This document shows positions 751 through 9,511 of a stretch of 50,316 nucleotides of DNA, piece by piece (position 1 is the stretch's first letter; every line of letters begins with the position of its first letter). A program made the position numbers and the translations under genes. This DNA comes from Actinomycetota bacterium (lineage in GTDB: Bacteria > Actinomycetota > Humimicrobiia > Humimicrobiales > Humimicrobiaceae), in assembly GCA_028717265.1 (NCBI GenBank), contig JAQUOE010000006.1, positions 1-50,316 on the forward strand, given 5' to 3'. Below the pieces are notes generated by a model, which searched no databases, was not told the origin of the DNA, and saw only the letters and a program-made list of their open reading frames with translations.

Positions 751-2376
751 TTAATAGCATGTCCCCAGATATTTTTTTAACGCCGCACGCACTGCGCCTT
801 TGCCCGTAAGTTGTGCGACAAACATCTCTTCGATCTTATTTCCCAGTCCTGCCTGAAATAAATCCACGGCGAAAAGCACTGAGTTTTTTAAAATGGATTT
901 TAACTCTCCATGATAGGTTTCCGGCTTGCCTGCAACAATGCCGTGCAGTGAAGCCGTAAGCTCACCCAGCACGGGATCGCTGCTTAGTGGCATCGGTTCA
1001 AGCAAATCGTTGGTACCCAGTAAATATCGCAGCCAGCCCGCTATGGCAAGTGGTATAGCAGTAAGGCTGTTTGCGCCCTGTTTTTCATCCGCCAGATAAG
1101 CCTTTATGGTTTCGCCAAAGCGTATCGGTATCTTCTGGCTGGTATCCGTCGCGATACGCTGTGGTGTATCCGGTATATACGGATTTGGCAGCCGTTTTTC
1201 AAGCACCTCCTGCAAGTAAATCTTCGGCTCGAGTATACCCGGATGATTCACTACAGGCAGGCTTTCGCTGTATCCGATGGTTTCGGCCAACCTGACGAGA
1301 TCCGGATCCCGCATTTGTGCCGCTATGCTTGAATACCCGAGAAGACATCCATATACGGCCAGCGCCGTGTGCAGCGGATTCAGACAGGCTGTCACCTTCA
1401 TCTTCTCGGTTTTGTTAACAGTATCCCTGTCAGTAAAATAAACACCTGTGCGTTCCAGTGCCGGACGGCCATTGGGAAAGCGGTCCTCAATCACCAGATA
1501 TTCCGGCACCTCGGCATTCACGAAGGGGGCGATAAACGTATTTTTTTCTGTTACCACAGGTGCTGCTTTTTCCAATCCAAGCTCAATAAGCTGCGCCGCA
1601 ATGATATCGGACGGGCGCGGAGTAATCTTGTCTATCATGCTGAAGGGAAACGACACCCTGTCCTCATCCTGAAGATATGCAACAAATCCCGCATCCACAA
1701 AACCTTTCTCATGCCACGCATTGGCCATTTTCAGCATTGCGGTACGAAGCCTCTCTCCGTTGTGGCTGCAGTTATCAAGACTCAGCAGTGCAAACGGATA
1801 TGCATCCGCCAGATATCGCCGCAATGTCAGTGCCGTCACACAGCCTGTTATGTGGCGCGCTTGCTCCGGTCCGTTTTGCATATCCGCAGCAGCAGTAGGG
1901 AGCAGTTCACCCTGTATGTCTATAAATGAGTATCCCTTTTCAGTGATCGTAAAGCTGACCAGCTGCAGTGCCGGATTTTCAAATACATCATTAAGAAACG
2001 CCATCTGTGCCGGTTCTTCCGGCCTGATACACACAGCTTTAGCGATGCTTGCAATAACCGTTTTCTCTGTATTGCCATCGGGATCGAGACTGACAAGCAG
2101 TGCAAGGTTATCGTGTGGTACATAGATTCTATCGATAATCTCATAATCATATGTTTCCGCAACGATGATACCGCTTTGCGCCGCATCTTCATTTAAAAGT
2201 TCCTGCTGCAGCCGGGCAATATAGCCTCTGAATATATTTCCCGCACCAAAATGTACCCATACAGGATGTGCTTGCGTATGTTTCCGCATGTTTTGTATAT
2301 CGAAGTGCGGCAATAACGCTCCTATTTCTTCCCACGTGCTCCTGTCGTGCAGGCCGTCAAGTGTTAATCTGAGCAT
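751..2376 (-). CDS. uxuB: Mannitol-dehydrogenase-family hexuronate reductase (fructuronate/tagaturonate reductase)
   Basis: Predicted to reduce D-fructuronate (or D-tagaturonate) to D-mannonate (or D-altronate) with NADH. The protein has 541 residues, like the long Thermotoga-type uronate reductases rather than the roughly 485-residue E. coli enzymes. It has a nucleotide-binding start (VHFGAGNIFRG, about 41-51) and the polyol-dehydrogenase catalytic pattern K-x5-N-x2-H at K327, N333 and H336. The start at 2376 has AAGGAG seven bases upstream, and this Shine-Dalgarno overlaps the uxaC stop, implying coupling. Which uronate is the true substrate cannot be read from the sequence. The mannonate or altronate dehydratase is not in the window. 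The gene is visibly richer in G+C than most of the window. Confidence 0.85.
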   Translation of the reverse strand: MLRLTLDGLHDRSTWEEIGALLPHFDIQNMRKHTQAHPVWVHFGAGNIFRGYIARLQQELLNEDAAQSGIIVAETYDYEIIDRIYVPHDNLALLVSLDPDGNTEKTVIASIAKAVCIRPEEPAQMAFLNDVFENPALQLVSFTITEKGYSFIDIQGELLPTAAADMQNGPEQARHITGCVTALTLRRYLADAYPFALLSLDNCSHNGERLRTAMLKMANAWHEKGFVDAGFVAYLQDEDRVSFPFSMIDKITPRPSDIIAAQLIELGLEKAAPVVTEKNTFIAPFVNAEVPEYLVIEDRFPNGRPALERTGVYFTDRDTVNKTEKMKVTACLNPLHTALAVYGCLLGYSSIAAQMRDPDLVRLAETIGYSESLPVVNHPGILEPKIYLQEVLEKRLPNPYIPDTPQRIATDTSQKIPIRFGETIKAYLADEKQGANSLTAIPLAIAGWLRYLLGTNDLLEPMPLSSDPVLGELTASLHGIVAGKPETYHGELKSILKNSVLFAVDLFQAGLGNKIEEMFVAQLTGKGAVRAALKKYLGTCY

Positions 2377-2388
2377 ATTTTTATCTCC

Positions 2389-3792
2389 TTACAATTCACT
2401 TAAGCCAAAATACCGAACGGCATTGTTGTAGCATATATCCTTTATCATGTTACCCATTGCAGGTACATCACAAGCGTATTCACCGTTTTCTATAATAGTC
2501 CCCAGTTTATTGCACAGTATGCGCCTAAAATACTCATGCCGCGAAAAACTGGTAAAGCTGCGGCTGTCTGTCAGCATGCCGATGAACGTGGATATCAATC
2601 CGGTTTCCAGCAGCTCATCTATCTGATTTTGTATGCCGCGTACATTGTCAAGGAACCACCAGGCGCTGCCCAATTGCACCTTGCCGGGTATTTTGCCACA
2701 TGCAAAATTGACCGCCATGGTGGACAGCACCGCGTTGTCGCCTGGGTTGAGACTATACAGTACCGTTCGCGGCAGGCATCCGGCTTTAGAAATGTCATCA
2801 AGCAGTGCACCAATCAGCGCAGGATTCTTCAGGCTCCCCACCGAATCAAAACCCGTATTAGGGCCAAGTTTCTGTATCATTGATGTATTGTTGCTCCGCA
2901 GCGCACCCAGATGCAGCTGCATTGCCATGTTATTTTTACAGTATTCACCCGCAAGAAATCGCAACAGCGCACCCTTATATTGCGCGATCTCATGCTCTGT
3001 CAGTGTCTCACCTGCGAGGGCTCTGGCAAACACAGCCTCCGGGTTGCCGTCCGACGCATACACAAAATCGATAAAGCCATGATCGGAAACCACACAGCCG
3101 GCGCTCTTGAAGTACGCGATTAAAAGTATCAGCGTATTTTTTAGCGCTTCAAAGCTATTGATTTTTATGCCATAGTGCGCCTGCATTTTAGAAATGTACT
3201 CCTTCCAGTCCTGTGCCTCGATATGCAGTACTCTGTCCGGCCGGAAGGAAGGCAATACCTTTATCTTGATTGTATCATCCTGCGCTATTTTCAAGTGCCA
3301 TTCGAGAGTATCGGCGGGCTCATCAGTCGTACATAAAAATTTAACCTTCGCACGCTCCATCATGCCGACAGCGTCGAAACCGGGCTGCCCCAGCTGCATG
3401 TTGCATGTGTCCCATATACTCTTCGCCGTAGCTGAACACAATGGCTCGTCGATATCAAAATACCTTTGCAGCTCCAGATGAACCCAGTGGTAGAGCGGGT
3501 TGCCTGGTATCTTCTCCACAGTCTGTGCCCATTTGATAAACTTGTCATAATCGTCTGCATTACCGGTGATATATGCTTCGTCTATGCCGCACACACGCAT
3601 GACACGCCACTTGTAGTGATCATTTTCCAGCCACACCTGTGTAATATTGTCAAAACATCTTTTTTGGCAGATCTCCTGCGCGGAAAGATGATTATGATAA
3701 TCAAAAATCGGCATGTCCTTTGCATAATTCTCAAAAAGTTCCAATGCTGTTTGATTGGTCAAAAGAAAATTTTTTCCGATGAACTCTTTCAT
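2389..3792 (-). CDS. uxaC: Uronate isomerase (glucuronate/galacturonate isomerase)
   Basis: Amidohydrolase-fold isomerase converting D-glucuronate to D-fructuronate and D-galacturonate to D-tagaturonate, the first step of hexuronate catabolism. The N-terminal metal motif DYHNHLSAQEI and the family segments LHLGALRSNN, DHGFIDF and LTDSRSF are present. Length (467-470 residues) is typical. I prefer the ATG at 3792 (MKEFIGKN): GAGG lies about ten bases upstream, whereas the alternative ATG at 3801 has it only one base away. The gene is first in the operon uxaC-uxuB-gnd and is transcribed from a strong promoter at 3851-3879 whose -10 is overlapped by a palindromic operator. The promoter and first codons lie inside a 165-bp repeat. 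Confidence 0.93.
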   Translation of the reverse strand: MKEFIGKNFLLTNQTALELFENYAKDMPIFDYHNHLSAQEICQKRCFDNITQVWLENDHYKWRVMRVCGIDEAYITGNADDYDKFIKWAQTVEKIPGNPLYHWVHLELQRYFDIDEPLCSATAKSIWDTCNMQLGQPGFDAVGMMERAKVKFLCTTDEPADTLEWHLKIAQDDTIKIKVLPSFRPDRVLHIEAQDWKEYISKMQAHYGIKINSFEALKNTLILLIAYFKSAGCVVSDHGFIDFVYASDGNPEAVFARALAGETLTEHEIAQYKGALLRFLAGEYCKNNMAMQLHLGALRSNNTSMIQKLGPNTGFDSVGSLKNPALIGALLDDISKAGCLPRTVLYSLNPGDNAVLSTMAVNFACGKIPGKVQLGSAWWFLDNVRGIQNQIDELLETGLISTFIGMLTDSRSFTSFSRHEYFRRILCNKLGTIIENGEYACDVPAMGNMIKDICYNNAVRYFGLSEL

Positions 3793-3841
3793 AGACACCA
3801 TACCTCACATTCTTTATATCATAAGAATCAGTTCGTACTAA

Positions 3842-3853
3842 TATACTAGTATA
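3842..3853. promoter_or_regulatory. Palindromic operator, probable GntR site
   Basis: Perfect 12-bp palindrome TATACTAGTATA overlapping the -10 box of the uxaC promoter. The same core (ACTAGT) recurs at 4758-4769, near 4996-5001 and at 5765-5770, each beside a promoter of this locus. The position predicts repression. Assignment to the GntR protein encoded at 5062-5730 is inference from proximity. Confidence 0.65.
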
Positions 3854-3879
3854 GTATCTTTAAATGCTTGATTCGTCAA
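3851..3879 (-). promoter_or_regulatory. Sigma-70-type promoter of uxaC-uxuB-gnd
   Basis: On the minus strand, -35 TTGACG (3874-3879) and -10 TACTAT (3851-3856) are separated by 17 bases. The -10 is overlapped by the ACTAGT palindrome. The element lies about 60 bases upstream of the uxaC start. Confidence 0.7.
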
Positions 3880-3929
3880 CACGCAAATGAGATAAACATT
3901 CGTAGTTTATCGAATTTTTTTGCTTTATC

Positions 3930-4613
3930 TTAAAGAAGCGGAAGGTCACATATTTTATTATACTTAATTCTTCTAAATTTATACTGCAAAAGCTGTTTGG
4001 CCAGATCTGCTGCACCTGAAGCATCCATAGCATAACCATCCGCTCTGATAGAATCTGCATACTCTTGAGTCAGAGGTGCACCACCAACCATTATCCTGGT
4101 ATCTTTAACCTCCTCGTCAGCTTTAACAGCTTCTATTACATCTTTCATGGCCGGCATAGTAGTGGTAAGTAGTGCTGAAAGTGCCAGAAGCCTGGCATTG
4201 TTTTTCTTTATCTCTTCAACAAATTTTTCCGGAGGAATATCAACACCCAGATCAATTACTGTAAAACCGGAACCCTCAAGCATCATCCTAACCAGATTTT
4301 TTCCAATGTCATGGAGATCTCCCCGGACCGTACCTAAAATTACAGTTCCTTTAGTAGGTGCTCCTGTTTCCGTAAGCAGGGGCTTTAAAACATCCATTGC
4401 TGCATGCATTGCCCGGGCTGCAATTAGAACTTCCGGTATGTACATCTCGTTAGCCTTGAATTTTCTACCAACTACACCCATACCGGGTATCAGTCCCTCA
4501 TTTAGAATTTCCACGGGACCTGTACCCTGATCCAGTAGTGTCTGAGTAATTTCTTTGCTCTTTGCATTGTCGCCTCTGATAATTGCATCTGCAAGATCTT
4601 GATACTTTGTCAT
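3930..4613 (-). CDS. Corrinoid (B12-binding) methyltransferase-type protein
   Basis: Methyl-carrier protein of the MtbC/MttC/MtaC type. It carries a helical cap domain (about 1-85) and a B12-binding Rossmann domain with D99-L-H101-D102-I-G104 (H101 is the expected lower axial cobalt ligand), a Ser/Leu stretch near 146 and the GG pair at 177-178. Such proteins pass methyl groups between a substrate methyltransferase and a second methyltransferase, but neither partner is in the window. The C-terminal tail after residue 210 (YKFRRIKYNK and on) looks like an extension, and its last four codons and stop fall inside repeat copy 1, suggesting a recombination junction. The start at 4613 has GAAGGAAG upstream. 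The likely promoter is in repeat copy 2, which would place it under the hexuronate regulator. Confidence 0.85.
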   Translation of the reverse strand: MTKYQDLADAIIRGDNAKSKEITQTLLDQGTGPVEILNEGLIPGMGVVGRKFKANEMYIPEVLIAARAMHAAMDVLKPLLTETGAPTKGTVILGTVRGDLHDIGKNLVRMMLEGSGFTVIDLGVDIPPEKFVEEIKKNNARLLALSALLTTTMPAMKDVIEAVKADEEVKDTRIMVGGAPLTQEYADSIRADGYAMDASGAADLAKQLLQYKFRRIKYNKICDLPLL

Positions 4614-4669
4614 ATCTTCTTCCTTCTTTAGTTCTTTTTAGTTCAATTATAATATTTGCTATTTGAGCT

Positions 4670-4708
4670 TTATGTTGTGCGATGTTTGATGGCTGTGAAC
4701 TCTTCCAT
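4670..4708 (-). pseudogene. 12-codon start-of-gene relic or leader ORF
   Basis: In repeat copy 2 the position matching the uxaC start codon also carries an ATG (4708), reading MEEF and then unrelated codons to a stop: MEEFTAIKHRTT, 12 residues. UxaC begins MKEF at the same place. Repeat similarity ends right after these codons. It is either the severed 5' end of a gene once driven by this promoter or a short leader ORF upstream of the corrinoid gene. Whether it is translated is unknown. Confidence 0.4.
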
Positions 4709-4757
4709 AGCTATTACACCTCACATTCTTTATATCATAAGAATCAGTTCATACTAA

Positions 4758-4769
4758 TATACTAGTATA
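4758..4769. promoter_or_regulatory. Palindromic operator in repeat copy 2
   Basis: The same TATACTAGTATA palindrome as at 3842-3853, again overlapping the -10 hexamer of the promoter on the minus strand. Confidence 0.62.
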
Positions 4770-4795
4770 GTATCTTTAAATGCCCGATTCGTCAA
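4767..4795 (-). promoter_or_regulatory. Promoter in repeat copy 2, likely driving the corrinoid gene
   Basis: -35 TTGACG (4790-4795), 17-base spacer and -10 TACTAT (4767-4772) on the minus strand, as in copy 1. The spacer differs at two bases. No other promoter as good is visible before the corrinoid start at 4613. Confidence 0.6.
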
Positions 4796-4993
4796 CACGC
4801 AAATGAGATAAACATTCGTAGTTTATCGAATTTTTTTACTTTATCTTGAAGAAGCAAAAGGGAGCCTGATATATCCAGAAGGCGGCCTATTAGATATCGA
4901 TATACAAATATACAGGATAATAGTATAATCGAAAAATTAAATTTATGGGGCAAGAAGTTCCCGAACCTAACAAGTTTAAACTAGCATTTTAAC

Positions 4994-5032
4994 ATACTAG
5001 TTGTTGCGTGTTGTGTTATTAAACCGTATAAT
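4994..5032 (+). promoter_or_regulatory. Promoter and operator of the GntR regulator gene
   Basis: -35 TTGCGT (5004-5009), 17-base spacer and -10 TATAAT (5027-5032). An ATACTAGTTG site sits immediately upstream of the -35 (ACTAGT at 4996-5001), with a weaker ACTAGC half-site at about 4980-4985. The arrangement suggests autoregulation. Confidence 0.6.
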
Positions 5033-5061: not shown

Positions 5062-5730
5062 ATGGAACTGCTCGAACGTATAACCAGAGAACCAGCGCGA
5101 GATTATGCTTTACGTGTACTAAAGCATAACATCGTTATTCTGGAACTGAAGCCCGGGAGCATTGTCAGTGAAAATGAGCTTGCTGCAGAAATGGGACTTT
5201 CACGTACACCTGTACGCGAAGCACTGCAGGAACTCAGCAAAGTACAGATTGTTGAAATATTTCCGCAAAAGGGCAGCTCAATTACAAAGATCGATTACAA
5301 TCTTGTAGAAGAAGCCAGATTTATGCGTATGGTGTTCGAGACTGCTATTGTGGAACAGGCATGTGATTTATCAACAGATGCGGACATTGAGAAACTTGAA
5401 TATAATATTAAGCAGCAGCGTTTTTATCTGCATAATCCTGAAAAGCTGATGGATCTAGATGATGACTTTCATAAACAATTATTTCATATCTGCAACAAAC
5501 AGCGCATATATAACCTGATAGAAAACATGATGATACATTTTGATAGGGTGCGGAGCATGACCCTTACTGTTATAAAAGACATTAAAATAGTAGAGGACCA
5601 CAATGCAATTCTGAAAGCAATTAAGGCACGAAATAAAACAAAGGCAAAGGAAGTCTTAAAAACGCATCTTACAAGATACAAGATAGACAAGGAACTTATA
5701 ATAAAATCATATCCTGAATACTTTAAATAG
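5062..5730 (+). CDS. GntR-family regulator, FCD (FadR-type) C-terminal domain
   Basis: One-component regulator of 222 residues. The winged-helix N-terminus (about 10-75) carries the GntR signature SENELAAEMGLSRTPVREAL. The all-helical FCD ligand domain (about 85-215) keeps the expected metal/ligand residues D133, H137, H180 and H202, with H159 a further candidate. The start is set at the ATG 5062, preceded by AAGGAGAGG; an upstream in-frame TTG at 5038 lies next to the promoter and is less likely. It is divergent from the catabolic operon and directly upstream of the TRAP genes, so it probably senses a hexuronate or a pathway intermediate and controls both units. The effector is unknown. Confidence 0.88.
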   Translation: MELLERITREPARDYALRVLKHNIVILELKPGSIVSENELAAEMGLSRTPVREALQELSKVQIVEIFPQKGSSITKIDYNLVEEARFMRMVFETAIVEQACDLSTDADIEKLEYNIKQQRFYLHNPEKLMDLDDDFHKQLFHICNKQRIYNLIENMMIHFDRVRSMTLTVIKDIKIVEDHNAILKAIKARNKTKAKEVLKTHLTRYKIDKELIIKSYPEYFK

Positions 5731-5757: not shown

Positions 5758-5786
5758 TTGACCAACTAGTATGCAAGTGTTATAGT
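5758..5786 (+). promoter_or_regulatory. Promoter and operator of the TRAP operon
   Basis: -35 TTGACC (5758-5763), 17-base spacer and -10 TATAGT (5781-5786). An AACTAGTATG site (ACTAGT at 5765-5770) lies within the spacer, where a bound regulator would block RNA polymerase. Confidence 0.65.
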
Positions 5787-5829: not shown

Positions 5830-6909
5830 ATGAAGAAATTTTTTGTAATTCTGATTACCTTGATGATGGTGGTAGTGCTGGTCTCGGCCTGCAAAACTGA
5901 TGAACAGGCTGAGTCTGAAGAGCCCCCTGCTGAGGAGGAAACCGACGAAGAGGTAGAAGCCGAAGAGGGAACCGTCGTTGAAGAGGAGGAACCCGCCGAA
6001 CCAACAGAAATCTTTACTCTTAAAATCGGCAATGTTTTGGCCGATGATGACCCGATTACTATAGGCCTTAGAAAGATGGCTGAAAATGTAGCCGCTCGTA
6101 CTAACGGTGGCATAGTGATCGATGTATACCCGTCGAGTCAACTTGGTGACACTCCAGACATTCTGGAAATGGCTAAGACCGGTTCCAATGTCGGTGTCAT
6201 AATTGATACCGGTTTGCTTGCCGACTATGTACCGGATATAGCTATCTACTCAGCACCTTACGTGTTTGACAACGTTGAGGAGGCACGTGCTTTTATTGAA
6301 ACAGATATCTTCGAAGGCTGGGTAGAGGAACTGGCAACTTTCGGTATGCGTAATTTGAGCCATAACTGGTATCAGGGTGCGCGTCATTTCCTGACCAATA
6401 AACTTGTAGAGACACCTGCCGATCTTGTAAACCTGCGTGTTCGAACAATGGGTAGCGCCGTGGCCCAGGAAACTATGACATCATTAGGTGCTATTCCCAC
6501 CTCAGTTGCGTGGGGTGAGGTATACAGCGCAATACAGTCCAAAGTCATCGACGCCTGCGAGGCACAGCTCCCTGCAGTTTATGGCCAATCCTTATATGAG
6601 GTTATCAGCAACATTGCGGAAACCGGTCACTTCCTGCTTTACACCGGCCTGGTTATCAGCGAGGAGTGGTTCCAGCAGCTGCCGGATGAGTACAGGCAGA
6701 TACTGACCGAAGAATCCATCGCTAACGGCGATTATGCTACGGAACTCACAATTGGGAAAGAAGTAGAGTATAAAGCTGAAATGGAGGATAAGGGCGTTCT
6801 GTTTACCGCAGTGGATATTACACCGTTCAAAGAAGCTACTGCTGCTGTTTACGAGATTATGGAGTGGGCAGATCTTAAGGCTCAGATTGATACAGCTCTC
6901 GGAAAATAA
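5830..6909 (+). CDS. dctP: TRAP transporter solute-binding lipoprotein (DctP family)
   Basis: Extracytoplasmic binding protein delivering a carboxylated solute, most likely a hexuronate given its neighbours, to the TRAP membrane subunits. The start at 5830 follows GGAGG at 5816-5820. The first 20 residues are a lipoprotein signal ending in lipobox VSAC (Cys about 20). A very acidic Glu/Pro-rich linker (about 25-60) follows, then the DctP fold. Conserved DctP features include NLRVRTMGS, with the Arg that normally binds the substrate carboxylate, and AWGEVYSAIQSKVIDACEA. Length is 359 residues. A strong hairpin follows the gene, so the binding protein may be made in excess over the membrane subunits. 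Confidence 0.92.
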   Translation: MKKFFVILITLMMVVVLVSACKTDEQAESEEPPAEEETDEEVEAEEGTVVEEEEPAEPTEIFTLKIGNVLADDDPITIGLRKMAENVAARTNGGIVIDVYPSSQLGDTPDILEMAKTGSNVGVIIDTGLLADYVPDIAIYSAPYVFDNVEEARAFIETDIFEGWVEELATFGMRNLSHNWYQGARHFLTNKLVETPADLVNLRVRTMGSAVAQETMTSLGAIPTSVAWGEVYSAIQSKVIDACEAQLPAVYGQSLYEVISNIAETGHFLLYTGLVISEEWFQQLPDEYRQILTEESIANGDYATELTIGKEVEYKAEMEDKGVLFTAVDITPFKEATAAVYEIMEWADLKAQIDTALGK

Positions 6910-6917
6910 ATAACTCA

Positions 6918-6960
6918 GTAATACTGGGGCAGCGAATGCTGCCCCAGTATTACATTTTTT
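6918..6960 (+). terminator. Strong intercistronic hairpin between dctP and dctQ
   Basis: Perfect 16-bp stem (arms 6918-6933 and 6938-6953; core ACTGGGGCAGC) with loop GAAT, followed within two bases by a run of six T. It has the form of an intrinsic terminator inside an operon, probably partial, allowing higher dctP than dctQM expression, or an mRNA 3'-end stabiliser. Confidence 0.85.
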
Positions 6961-7007
6961 AACACAGAAGCAGTGTATTTTATTCGACGGTAAAGGTGAG
7001 GGTAGAT

Positions 7008-7526
7008 TTGAAAAAAATCAATAGAATGATCGCAAAAGTTGAAATTGCTGTGGGCGTTACAATAACGACGAGTATTGTTCTGCTGGTATTTTTAGCGGCG
7101 CTCACAAGAACAATCAGACATCCCATCATATGGAGCGTGGATTTTGCGCAACTTCTGTTCGTTTGGATGAGTATGATAGGAGCTGATGTTGCATTAAAAT
7201 ACAAGGCGCATATAGGTGTGGATCTACTTGTCAAAAGACTTCCGGCTAAGGTGCAAAAAATCATTGAGATGTTAACCTATATTCTGGCATCGGTTTTTAT
7301 TGGTTTCGTTATATATTGGGGTGCGACACTTTGTATAAACAACGTGCTGCGTCAATACCAGACACTGCATATCAGCTATTCGTACAGCACAGCTGCTGTG
7401 CCCGTTATCGGCATTCTTATGCTATTCACTATGGCCGAGCAAATAGTAGAGCTGATTAAAAACTGGAATTCGCCGATTACTGACGACTCACTAAAGGAAT
7501 GCGGCGGAATACAATCAGAGGAGTAA
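7008..7526 (+). CDS. dctQ: TRAP transporter small membrane subunit (DctQ family)
   Basis: Four-helix membrane protein that scaffolds the large TRAP permease. Hydrophobic segments lie at about 12-35, 45-65, 85-105 and 120-145. Family features include the W-D-F-A-Q-L run at the end of helix 1 and the HIGVDLL stretch before helix 3. I prefer the TTG at 7008 (L/M-KKINRM) because GAGG sits six bases upstream. A GTG at 6996 in the same frame would add four residues but has no good binding site. It is followed after four bases by dctM. Confidence 0.85.
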   Translation: MKKINRMIAKVEIAVGVTITTSIVLLVFLAALTRTIRHPIIWSVDFAQLLFVWMSMIGADVALKYKAHIGVDLLVKRLPAKVQKIIEMLTYILASVFIGFVIYWGATLCINNVLRQYQTLHISYSYSTAAVPVIGILMLFTMAEQIVELIKNWNSPITDDSLKECGGIQSEE

Positions 7527-7530
7527 AAAT

Positions 7531-8814
7531 ATGCAACTCGTAATGATCGTATTTGTTGTTTTATTGATTTTGAAGGTTCCTTTGGCTTTCACCATTGGCA
7601 TTTCCAGCCTGTCGTTCTTTTTCATGACACCGGATGTATCCTGGATCACACCGGTTCAGAGAATGGTCAGCACCACGCAGAGTTTTCCTTTGCTTGCGGT
7701 ACCATTCTTTGTACTGGCTGGCAATTTAATGAACGCTACCGGTATCACAAGGCGGTTGATTGATTTCAGCACAATACTCACAGGCCACATGCGCGGAGGA
7801 CTGGCACACGTTTCCTGCGTGCTAAGCACACTGATGGGTGGTATCTCGGGCTCCGCCTGTGCAGATGCTGCCATGGAAGCGCGTATACTTGGTCCTGATA
7901 TGGTAAAGCGCGGTTATAGCAAAGGTTTTTCTGCAGCTGTTATCGGTCTGACAAGCCTGATAACCGCAACAATTCCACCTGGAATCGGATTGATACTATA
8001 TGGTGTGACAGGCAGTGTTTCCATAGGAAAGCTGTTTGTAGCGGGTATCATACCTGGAATAATCATGATGTTCTTTCTTATGTTTGTATCTTCACGAATA
8101 GCAAAAAAGAGGCAATACCCGGTAGAAAACGATCGCCCGCCGACGGGAAAAGAGGTTTGGAAAGGCTTAAAGGCAAGCATATGGGCGCTTATATTCCCCC
8201 TCATCCTCATCGTAGGTATAAGATTTGGTATATTTACCGCTACAGAAGCGGGAGCATTTGCGGTCGTTTATGCATTTATAATAGGAAAATTCGTTTACAA
8301 AGAACTCACATGGAAGGGCTTTTTCCATGTTGTACGTACCACGCTCTCGGACAACGGCGTTATCATGTTCATCATTATGTGCTCAGGAATATTCGGTTTT
8401 GCTATCACATATGATAAGGTGCCGCAGACCATGGCAACCTTCATAGGCGGTATAAGCCAGAATTCTTATATGATTATCTTCATTGTACTGTTGTTTATAT
8501 TGATTGCCGGTATGTTCATGGAAGCAACCGTCAATACATTGCTGCTTACGCCCATATTCCTGCCGATTGTCAGGGAACTTGGCGTAGATCCGGTGCATTT
8601 TGGCATACTGTTCATGACTCTTATCACGATGGGCGGCATGACTCCGCCGGTGGGCGTGACCATGTACGCTACATGTTCCATTATGAAGTGTCCGGTTGAG
8701 GATTATGTGAAGGAAAGTTTGCCATTTATTGCTGTAATATTGGTGGAGATCATCATACTGGTATTCTTCCCCCAGATATTCATGTGGCTGCCCAATCTGG
8801 TTTTTGGTAAATAA
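7531..8814 (+). CDS. dctM: TRAP transporter large permease subunit (DctM family)
   Basis: Ion-coupled permease of 427 residues with about 12 hydrophobic segments. Characteristic DctM stretches include PLLAVPFFVLAGNLMNATGI, GGISGSACADAAM, TATIPPGIGLILYG and the C-terminal TPPVGVTMYA. The ATG at 7531 is preceded by GAGGAG. Together with dctP and dctQ it forms a complete tripartite transporter next to uronate isomerase and reductase, so hexuronate uptake is the best inference. Dicarboxylates or sialic acid would be alternatives on family grounds alone. Confidence 0.93.
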   Translation: MQLVMIVFVVLLILKVPLAFTIGISSLSFFFMTPDVSWITPVQRMVSTTQSFPLLAVPFFVLAGNLMNATGITRRLIDFSTILTGHMRGGLAHVSCVLSTLMGGISGSACADAAMEARILGPDMVKRGYSKGFSAAVIGLTSLITATIPPGIGLILYGVTGSVSIGKLFVAGIIPGIIMMFFLMFVSSRIAKKRQYPVENDRPPTGKEVWKGLKASIWALIFPLILIVGIRFGIFTATEAGAFAVVYAFIIGKFVYKELTWKGFFHVVRTTLSDNGVIMFIIMCSGIFGFAITYDKVPQTMATFIGGISQNSYMIIFIVLLFILIAGMFMEATVNTLLLTPIFLPIVRELGVDPVHFGILFMTLITMGGMTPPVGVTMYATCSIMKCPVEDYVKESLPFIAVILVEIIILVFFPQIFMWLPNLVFGK

Positions 8815-9099: not shown

Positions 9100-9511
9100 C
9101 TTTCCTATGGTACCGTAGATATCCTGGTGAATAACGCTGGTATTATGGATAATTTTGAGCCGGCTGCTCTGATATAACCGATACGATGTGGAATAAAATA
9201 TTTTCAATTAATACCACCTCAGTTATGAGGTCCACAAGGAAAGTATTTCCTGTATTTTTAGCTAAAGGTTCCGGAGTCATTATTAATATTGCATCAGTTA
9301 GAGGCTCGCATGGCAGCACAACCGGAGTTGCCTATACGGCTTCTAAATTTGCTGTTGTTGGTTTTACAAAAAATGTTGGCTTCTAATATGCCATGAAGGG
9401 CATACGCTGTAATGCAATAAACCCGGAGCAGCATTATTCCTGGCTTCAGATGAATCCAATTTTGTTAACGGTGCGGTTCTAATTATTGACGGAGACCGGA
9501 CAGCATATTAA
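9100..9511 (+). pseudogene. Decayed short-chain dehydrogenase/reductase (FabG-like)
   Basis: Several frames together reconstruct a classical SDR: GTVDILVNNAGIMDNFEPAA, then after a frameshift near 9175 MWNKIFSINTTSV, IINIASVRGS and the catalytic YTASK, then a stop at about 9385, then MKGIRCNAINPG and, after an internal deletion, ALFLASDE and NFVNGAVLIIDGD to the stop at 9509. The N-terminal Rossmann GxxxGxG part and some 40 residues after NPG are missing. No complete enzyme can be made. Its former substrate cannot be told. Confidence 0.85.

Follow-up and report, generated by a model that had tools for sequence, protein, structure and literature searches.

A gene for a corrinoid methyl carrier lies, in the 50,316-nucleotide stretch of DNA analysed here (the window), between two copies of a promoter-operator-start segment, one of which drives the uronate isomerase gene uxaC. 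As a structure this promoter capture is well supported; as a function we infer it from the intact second copy and from an operator word common to the promoters of the surrounding cluster. Our preferred reading, to which we give a probability of about 0.6, is that a laterally acquired corrinoid gene was inserted between gntR and uxaC, that its insertion duplicated the uxaC promoter segment, and that the second copy now reads into the corrinoid gene. The observations behind it are the duplication itself, a stub of uxaC, a corrinoid gene with a trimmed and extended 3' end, a syntenic ortholog of that gene elsewhere in the genome, and a foreign placement of the gene in trees. A methyl-carrier gene has probably become part of a sugar-acid regulon in a single species belonging to an uncultured family. 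The observation rests on one genome, a 66-contig draft of 1.59 Mb that is estimated to be 95% complete.

The duplicated promoter segment

The segment is a direct repeat of 166 bp, found at 3780-3945 (copy 1, before uxaC) and at 4696-4861 (copy 2, upstream of the corrinoid gene), both on the minus strand and with a spacing of 916. The copies align without gaps and are identical at 153 of 166 positions (92%); the bracketing pair of copies described in an earlier, sequence-only reading, and the gene assigned there to each, are borne out by these coordinates. Beyond the repeat, identity is at chance level at once (12/40 on each side). When the whole 1.59-Mb assembly was searched by BLAST with one copy, only these two places matched, the second with E = 4e-65. 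A mobile element or MITE as the source of the repeat is ruled out, since the genome has two copies only.

In both copies the minus-strand order is -35, -10, TACTAGTATATTAGTA, leader, SD GTGAGGT, and the start ATG-(A/G)AA-GAG-TTC. The -35 box TTGACG occupies 3874-3879 in copy 1 and 4790-4795 in copy 2, and the -10 box TACTAT, after a spacer of 17 in each, 3851-3856 and 4767-4772. Just downstream of the copy 1 -10 lies the palindrome TACTAGTATATTAGTA, a putative operator (3836-3851), to which its counterpart in copy 2 (4752-4767) is identical. The same is true of an inverted repeat upstream of the -35, GATAAAC-N7-GTTTATC (3891-3911 and 4807-4827), a possible activator site; a terminator at 3891-3911 was ruled out because the repeat folds no better than shuffles. 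The earlier claim of a shared -35, -10, operator and coding start holds, and the -35, -10, operator, SD and ATG are free of mismatches.

The differences between the copies are unevenly spread. With element boundaries that were partly picked after the sequence was seen, there were 0/58 mismatches in the -35, -10, operator, SD, ATG and inverted repeat against 13/108 elsewhere (p = 0.003), 0/37 in the elements when the inverted repeat was left out (p = 0.03), and a concentration at the segment ends, 9/36 against 4/130 in the core (p = 1.6e-4). Twelve of the 13 differences are transitions.

The two copies open different frames. In copy 1 the start codon opens uxaC (probable start 3792, with the SD 9 nt before it). 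In copy 2 the same start is uncoupled from its gene and is read as a stub of 12 codons, MEEFTAIKHRTT, followed by a stop (4670-4708, minus strand). The corrinoid gene starts at 4613, 56 nt past the stub stop, and is preceded by its own GGAAGAAG.

The corrinoid gene and its relatives

The gene between the copies (3930-4613, minus strand) encodes a protein of 227 amino acids with the Pfam domains B12-binding_2 and B12-binding (87.7 and 94.5 bits) and with the DxHxxG motif present as GDLHDIG. Against TIGR02370 it scores 202.5, below the cut-off of 215.3, and against MtgC 223.2, where the cut-off is 370. Its end sits in copy 1, which contains the last four codons and the stop (within 3930-3945), as the sequence-only reading had noticed. 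Comparison with relatives places this end outside the family. All 14 of the relatives' corrinoid genes inspected stop within a few codons of a conserved ELL, as ELL(S/Q). The window gene has lost this family stop, and its frame continues through 17 extra codons, YKFRRIKYNKICDLPLL, to a stop inside copy 1 (3930-3983 with the stop, minus strand). The terminator-like hairpins found downstream of several relatives' corrinoid genes are missing after this one.

The unique DNA between the copies (3946-4695) consists of 82 nt before the ATG, the gene, and about 38 nt past the position of the family stop. Its edges (82 nt and about 39 nt) matched the gene flanks of the sampled relatives no better than chance; short DNA matches to two relatives (G015:C50 and G034:C40) were considered as donor flanks and ruled out as AT-rich chance matches. 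A TATAAT-like box is found within the 82 nt, so that a residual promoter of the corrinoid gene's own is possible. On the minus strand no terminator-like site was found from the corrinoid stop to uxaC, and transcripts from copy 2 may therefore continue into uxaC.

A corrinoid relative with E <= 1e-60 was detected in 24 of the 35 family genomes searched, the window genome included, and the window protein is 70-80% identical to most of these relatives. Where the relatives' neighbourhoods were read, the gene mostly lies beside two further conserved genes and what we take, by sequence recognition, to be ribH, ribAB, ribE and ribD. The window genome also has a corrinoid gene in this riboflavin-side location, which we take to be the ancestral one, away from the captured promoter. 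This second protein of the type, encoded on contig C27, is the syntenic ortholog and is only 60-61% identical to the window copy. It clusters with its own genus on a long branch. When the tree was built with the long rows taken out, joining the window protein to its own genus was rejected (AU test, p = 0.0035); it falls instead, weakly, with genera g3 and g7 (support 88/78 and 83/75). A second, syntenic ortholog together with this foreign position indicates that the window gene is an extra copy, which probably came from another lineage of the same family. Duplication of the genome's own gene is ruled out, the other copy being so distant and in a different clade.

The C27 ortholog (locus L057, G000:C27; 6605-7237 of the locus) has diverged fast, with 16 of 95 invariant residues changed and an end branch of 0.66, and is separated from ribH by a gene for a 328-aa epimerase-like protein that the relatives do not have there. 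In genus g3 (L063 and L067; G022 and G008) the corrinoid gene has a place away from the riboflavin genes, where it adjoins a RACo-type activase gene and converges on araD-like and araB-like genes. A genome of the same genus as the window (G006; L041 and L055) has two corrinoid copies, one of them near sugar-ABC-transporter-like genes.

The window protein keeps 92 of the 95 family-invariant residues. Had the gene been free of constraint from the time the promoter copies separated, one would expect 7-12 departures; three or fewer would then occur with a probability of 0.05-0.002, according to the rate assumed. The count points to a captured gene that still works, if the promoter copies diverged in place.

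The hexuronate cluster

The corrinoid gene stands in the middle of a set of sugar-acid genes. uxaC (2389-3792, minus strand; GC 0.47) matches PRK02925 over its full length and scores 547 bits, the curated cut-off being 387. It is followed by a gene of the mannitol dehydrogenase family that resembles fructuronate/tagaturonate reductases (751-2376, minus strand; GC 0.49). On the plus strand are a GntR/FCD regulator (5062-5730) and the TRAP transporter genes dctP, dctQ and dctM (5830-8814), which are likely to serve in sugar-acid uptake. The uxaC, reductase-like and dct genes have GC of 0.42-0.49 and GC3 of 0.44-0.54, compared with 0.35-0.44 and 0.29-0.42 for 15 other genes sampled in the window; the GC3 of the corrinoid gene is 0.32. 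At 1-729, downstream of the reductase-like gene, a 6-phosphogluconate dehydrogenase-like gene with GC near the genome mean runs off the start of the contig. At the far end of the cluster (9186-9386) a short ORF resembles a piece of a short-chain dehydrogenase and is possibly a decayed gene.

No comparable uxaC was found in the genomes of the 34 family relatives, nor does the family contain a close relative of the regulator. The uxaC/GntR/TRAP cluster was thus probably acquired horizontally. A sample of 397 genomes from the phylum contained three other uxaC genes, 42-46% identical. No close donor emerged: the best match in the species collection, a metagenome-assembled genome labelled Clostridium sp., is 58% identical and has a different neighbourhood. 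At the ten uxaC loci of 40-58% identity that were checked, no corrinoid gene was seen in the stretch of surrounding DNA available. Since the 34 relatives lack a comparable uxaC, no one-copy or insert-free allele of the locus was found among them; none was seen to carry both promoter copies.

Origin of the arrangement

The simplest ancestor would have had the order gntR-promoter-uxaC, and one promoter-duplicating insertion into the gap that separates gntR from uxaC, which are read divergently, would give the present order, gntR-promoter-corrinoid-promoter-uxaC. Copy 2 would have stayed beside gntR, lost its link to uxaC (leaving the 12-codon stub) and come to feed the corrinoid gene, with copy 1 remaining the driver of uxaC. 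A single illegitimate event was probably responsible for the insertion. In one route, a template switch would have left uxaC at codon 4, landed 82 nt before the corrinoid start and, about 38 nt past the normal corrinoid stop, jumped back to the upstream edge of the promoter segment. In another, a circle that already carried the promoter and the corrinoid gene would have entered by a single crossover.

A two-step origin has a smaller but appreciable chance of being correct. The corrinoid gene would first have come to lie directly upstream of the uxaC promoter, both would have been duplicated in tandem, and the first corrinoid copy would then have been deleted. Tandem duplication is the documented route of citT behind the rnk promoter (PMC5918244), of which the two-step path would be a longer form. 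The copies cease to be homologous some 15 bp past the corrinoid stop, which would fit a copy 2 that retains the last codons of a lost gene. Against this, the deletion would have to be precise and is one step more than insertion requires, and the DNA between 4862 and gntR keeps no trace of such a first copy. Because the insert edges match no sampled relative, the sequence fits the template switch, the circle and the duplication-deletion alike. The two-step origin differs from insertion in history only, and its regulatory outcome would be the same.

Regulation and possible role

In the 50 kb of the window the word ACTAGTAT turns up six times, where 1.06 would be expected, and none of 100 shuffles reached six. 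Two occurrences are in each palindromic operator (copy 1 and copy 2), one is in the gntR promoter region (4994-5001), and one is in the dctP promoter (5765-5772), between the -35 (5758) and the -10. All six are thus in the cluster, in promoters that serve its regulator, transporter and enzyme genes, and the word is accordingly the probable operator for the regulator encoded there. The GntR/FCD protein, the candidate owner, would bind it. Copy 2 would then be transcribed under GntR, perhaps on into uxaC, and the corrinoid protein would be co-induced with hexuronate uptake and isomerisation. Since it is placed between two copies of a switch for sugar-acid breakdown, the corrinoid gene was probably rewired and now answers to plant sugar acids, and co-induction with hexuronate catabolism is the most likely role of the methyl carrier. 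Of the promoter capture proposed in the sequence-only reading, the structural part is well borne out by the duplication, the extra foreign gene copy and the trimmed 3' end; hexuronate control is what we infer from the intact copy 2 and the common ACTAGTAT. The syntenic ortholog elsewhere in the genome had escaped that reading.

It is unlikely that the arrangement is a neutral scar, in which copy 2 has no regulatory effect and the corrinoid gene either is expressed from what is left of its own promoter or is redundant and being lost. The syntenic ortholog retained in the genome, the captured protein's missing family stop and 17-aa tail, the TATAAT-like box upstream, and the lack of a cognate methyltransferase gene nearby are all consistent with such a scar. 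It is opposed by the promoter elements, free of mismatches in both copies, and by the invariant residues, 92/95 of which are kept in the window protein; the drifted copy is the syntenic one, with 16/95 departures.

Partners for the captured protein have been sought. The assembly (estimated 95% complete) contains no member of the MttB superfamily (PF06253), so MttB was rejected as a partner, and the hexuronate cluster contains no cognate methyltransferase; a hexuronate-linked reaction is accordingly not evident. The assembly does encode a 310-aa protein with a homocysteine S-methyltransferase domain on contig C3, two proteins of the URO-D family on contigs C1 and C56, and two RACo reductive activases, one RACo gene adjoining a URO-D gene on contig C1. 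The genome therefore has carriers, activases and possible methyl acceptors. It is improbable that the captured copy has become the cell's working carrier while the C27 ortholog diverges, so that hexuronates now govern a core step of one-carbon methyl transfer. If the captured copy did replace the older one, control of a conserved metabolic gene would have moved to a new signal. Were such control real, demethylation of methylated plant uronates or methanol from pectin might be coupled to their catabolism, a link that is attractive but unsupported so far.

Selection for the doubled promoter itself, giving more or better-buffered uxaC expression with the corrinoid gene as a passenger, is improbable: both promoters are intact and on the same strand with no terminator-like site from the corrinoid stop to uxaC, but the corrinoid coding sequence is still constrained, and a second promoter 900 bp upstream would be an inefficient means of raising expression. 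An assembly or binning artefact is very improbable even for a draft of 66 contigs, because the copies differ at 13 sites and share no exact run longer than 52 bp, so that an assembler with longer k-mers should not be confused by them, the RnfC encoded on the contig is closest to same-genus genomes (74-76%), and the corrinoid reading frame is intact across the junction.

Comparison with known systems

Laboratory evolution has supplied well-documented cases of promoter capture. To our knowledge natural cases have rarely been found that preserve, in readable form, the two promoter copies together with the truncated start, the fusion at the 3' end and the ancestral gene. The window adds to this known class of event a natural example that is unusually easy to read, and its two promoter copies and one operator offer a concrete and inexpensive test of how horizontally acquired catabolic clusters recruit genes of the host's kin. 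A literature search found no paper with both 'corrinoid protein' and 'uronate isomerase'.

The closest parallel is citT in the E. coli long-term evolution experiment, where tandem duplication placed citT behind a copy of the rnk promoter and expression was shown (PMC5918244). In both cases a duplication sets a gene behind the promoter copy of another gene, and a truncated original gene precedes the captured one, an rnk-citG fusion for citT (PMC5918244) and the 12-codon uxaC stub in the window. citT came from neighbouring DNA in the laboratory, whereas the window gene is foreign to its locus, the promoter alone was duplicated, and the case is known from sequence only.

Among corrinoid systems, the window protein resembles MtgC, MtbC and MttC (TIGR02370, NF047996) in its B12-binding_2 cap and B12-binding domain, its GDLHDIG cobalt-ligand motif and a size of about 210 aa. 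Unlike them it falls under every curated cut-off, has a 17-aa tail and no adjoining methyltransferase, and is found in a genome with no detected MttB. The type 1 mlp clusters, which combine URO-D methyltransferases, a corrinoid protein and a Ram/RACE activase (PMC10418091), have the same general type of carrier, and the RACo gene beside a URO-D gene on contig C1 is a further likeness; in contrast to those clusters, the window corrinoid gene is alone, apart from activase and methyltransferase. Finally, the cluster brings its regulator, transporter, isomerase and reductase genes together with a common promoter word, as do other hexuronate clusters that are under GntR/FCD control and contain UxaC and a TRAP transporter, but it differs in having a corrinoid gene inside it.
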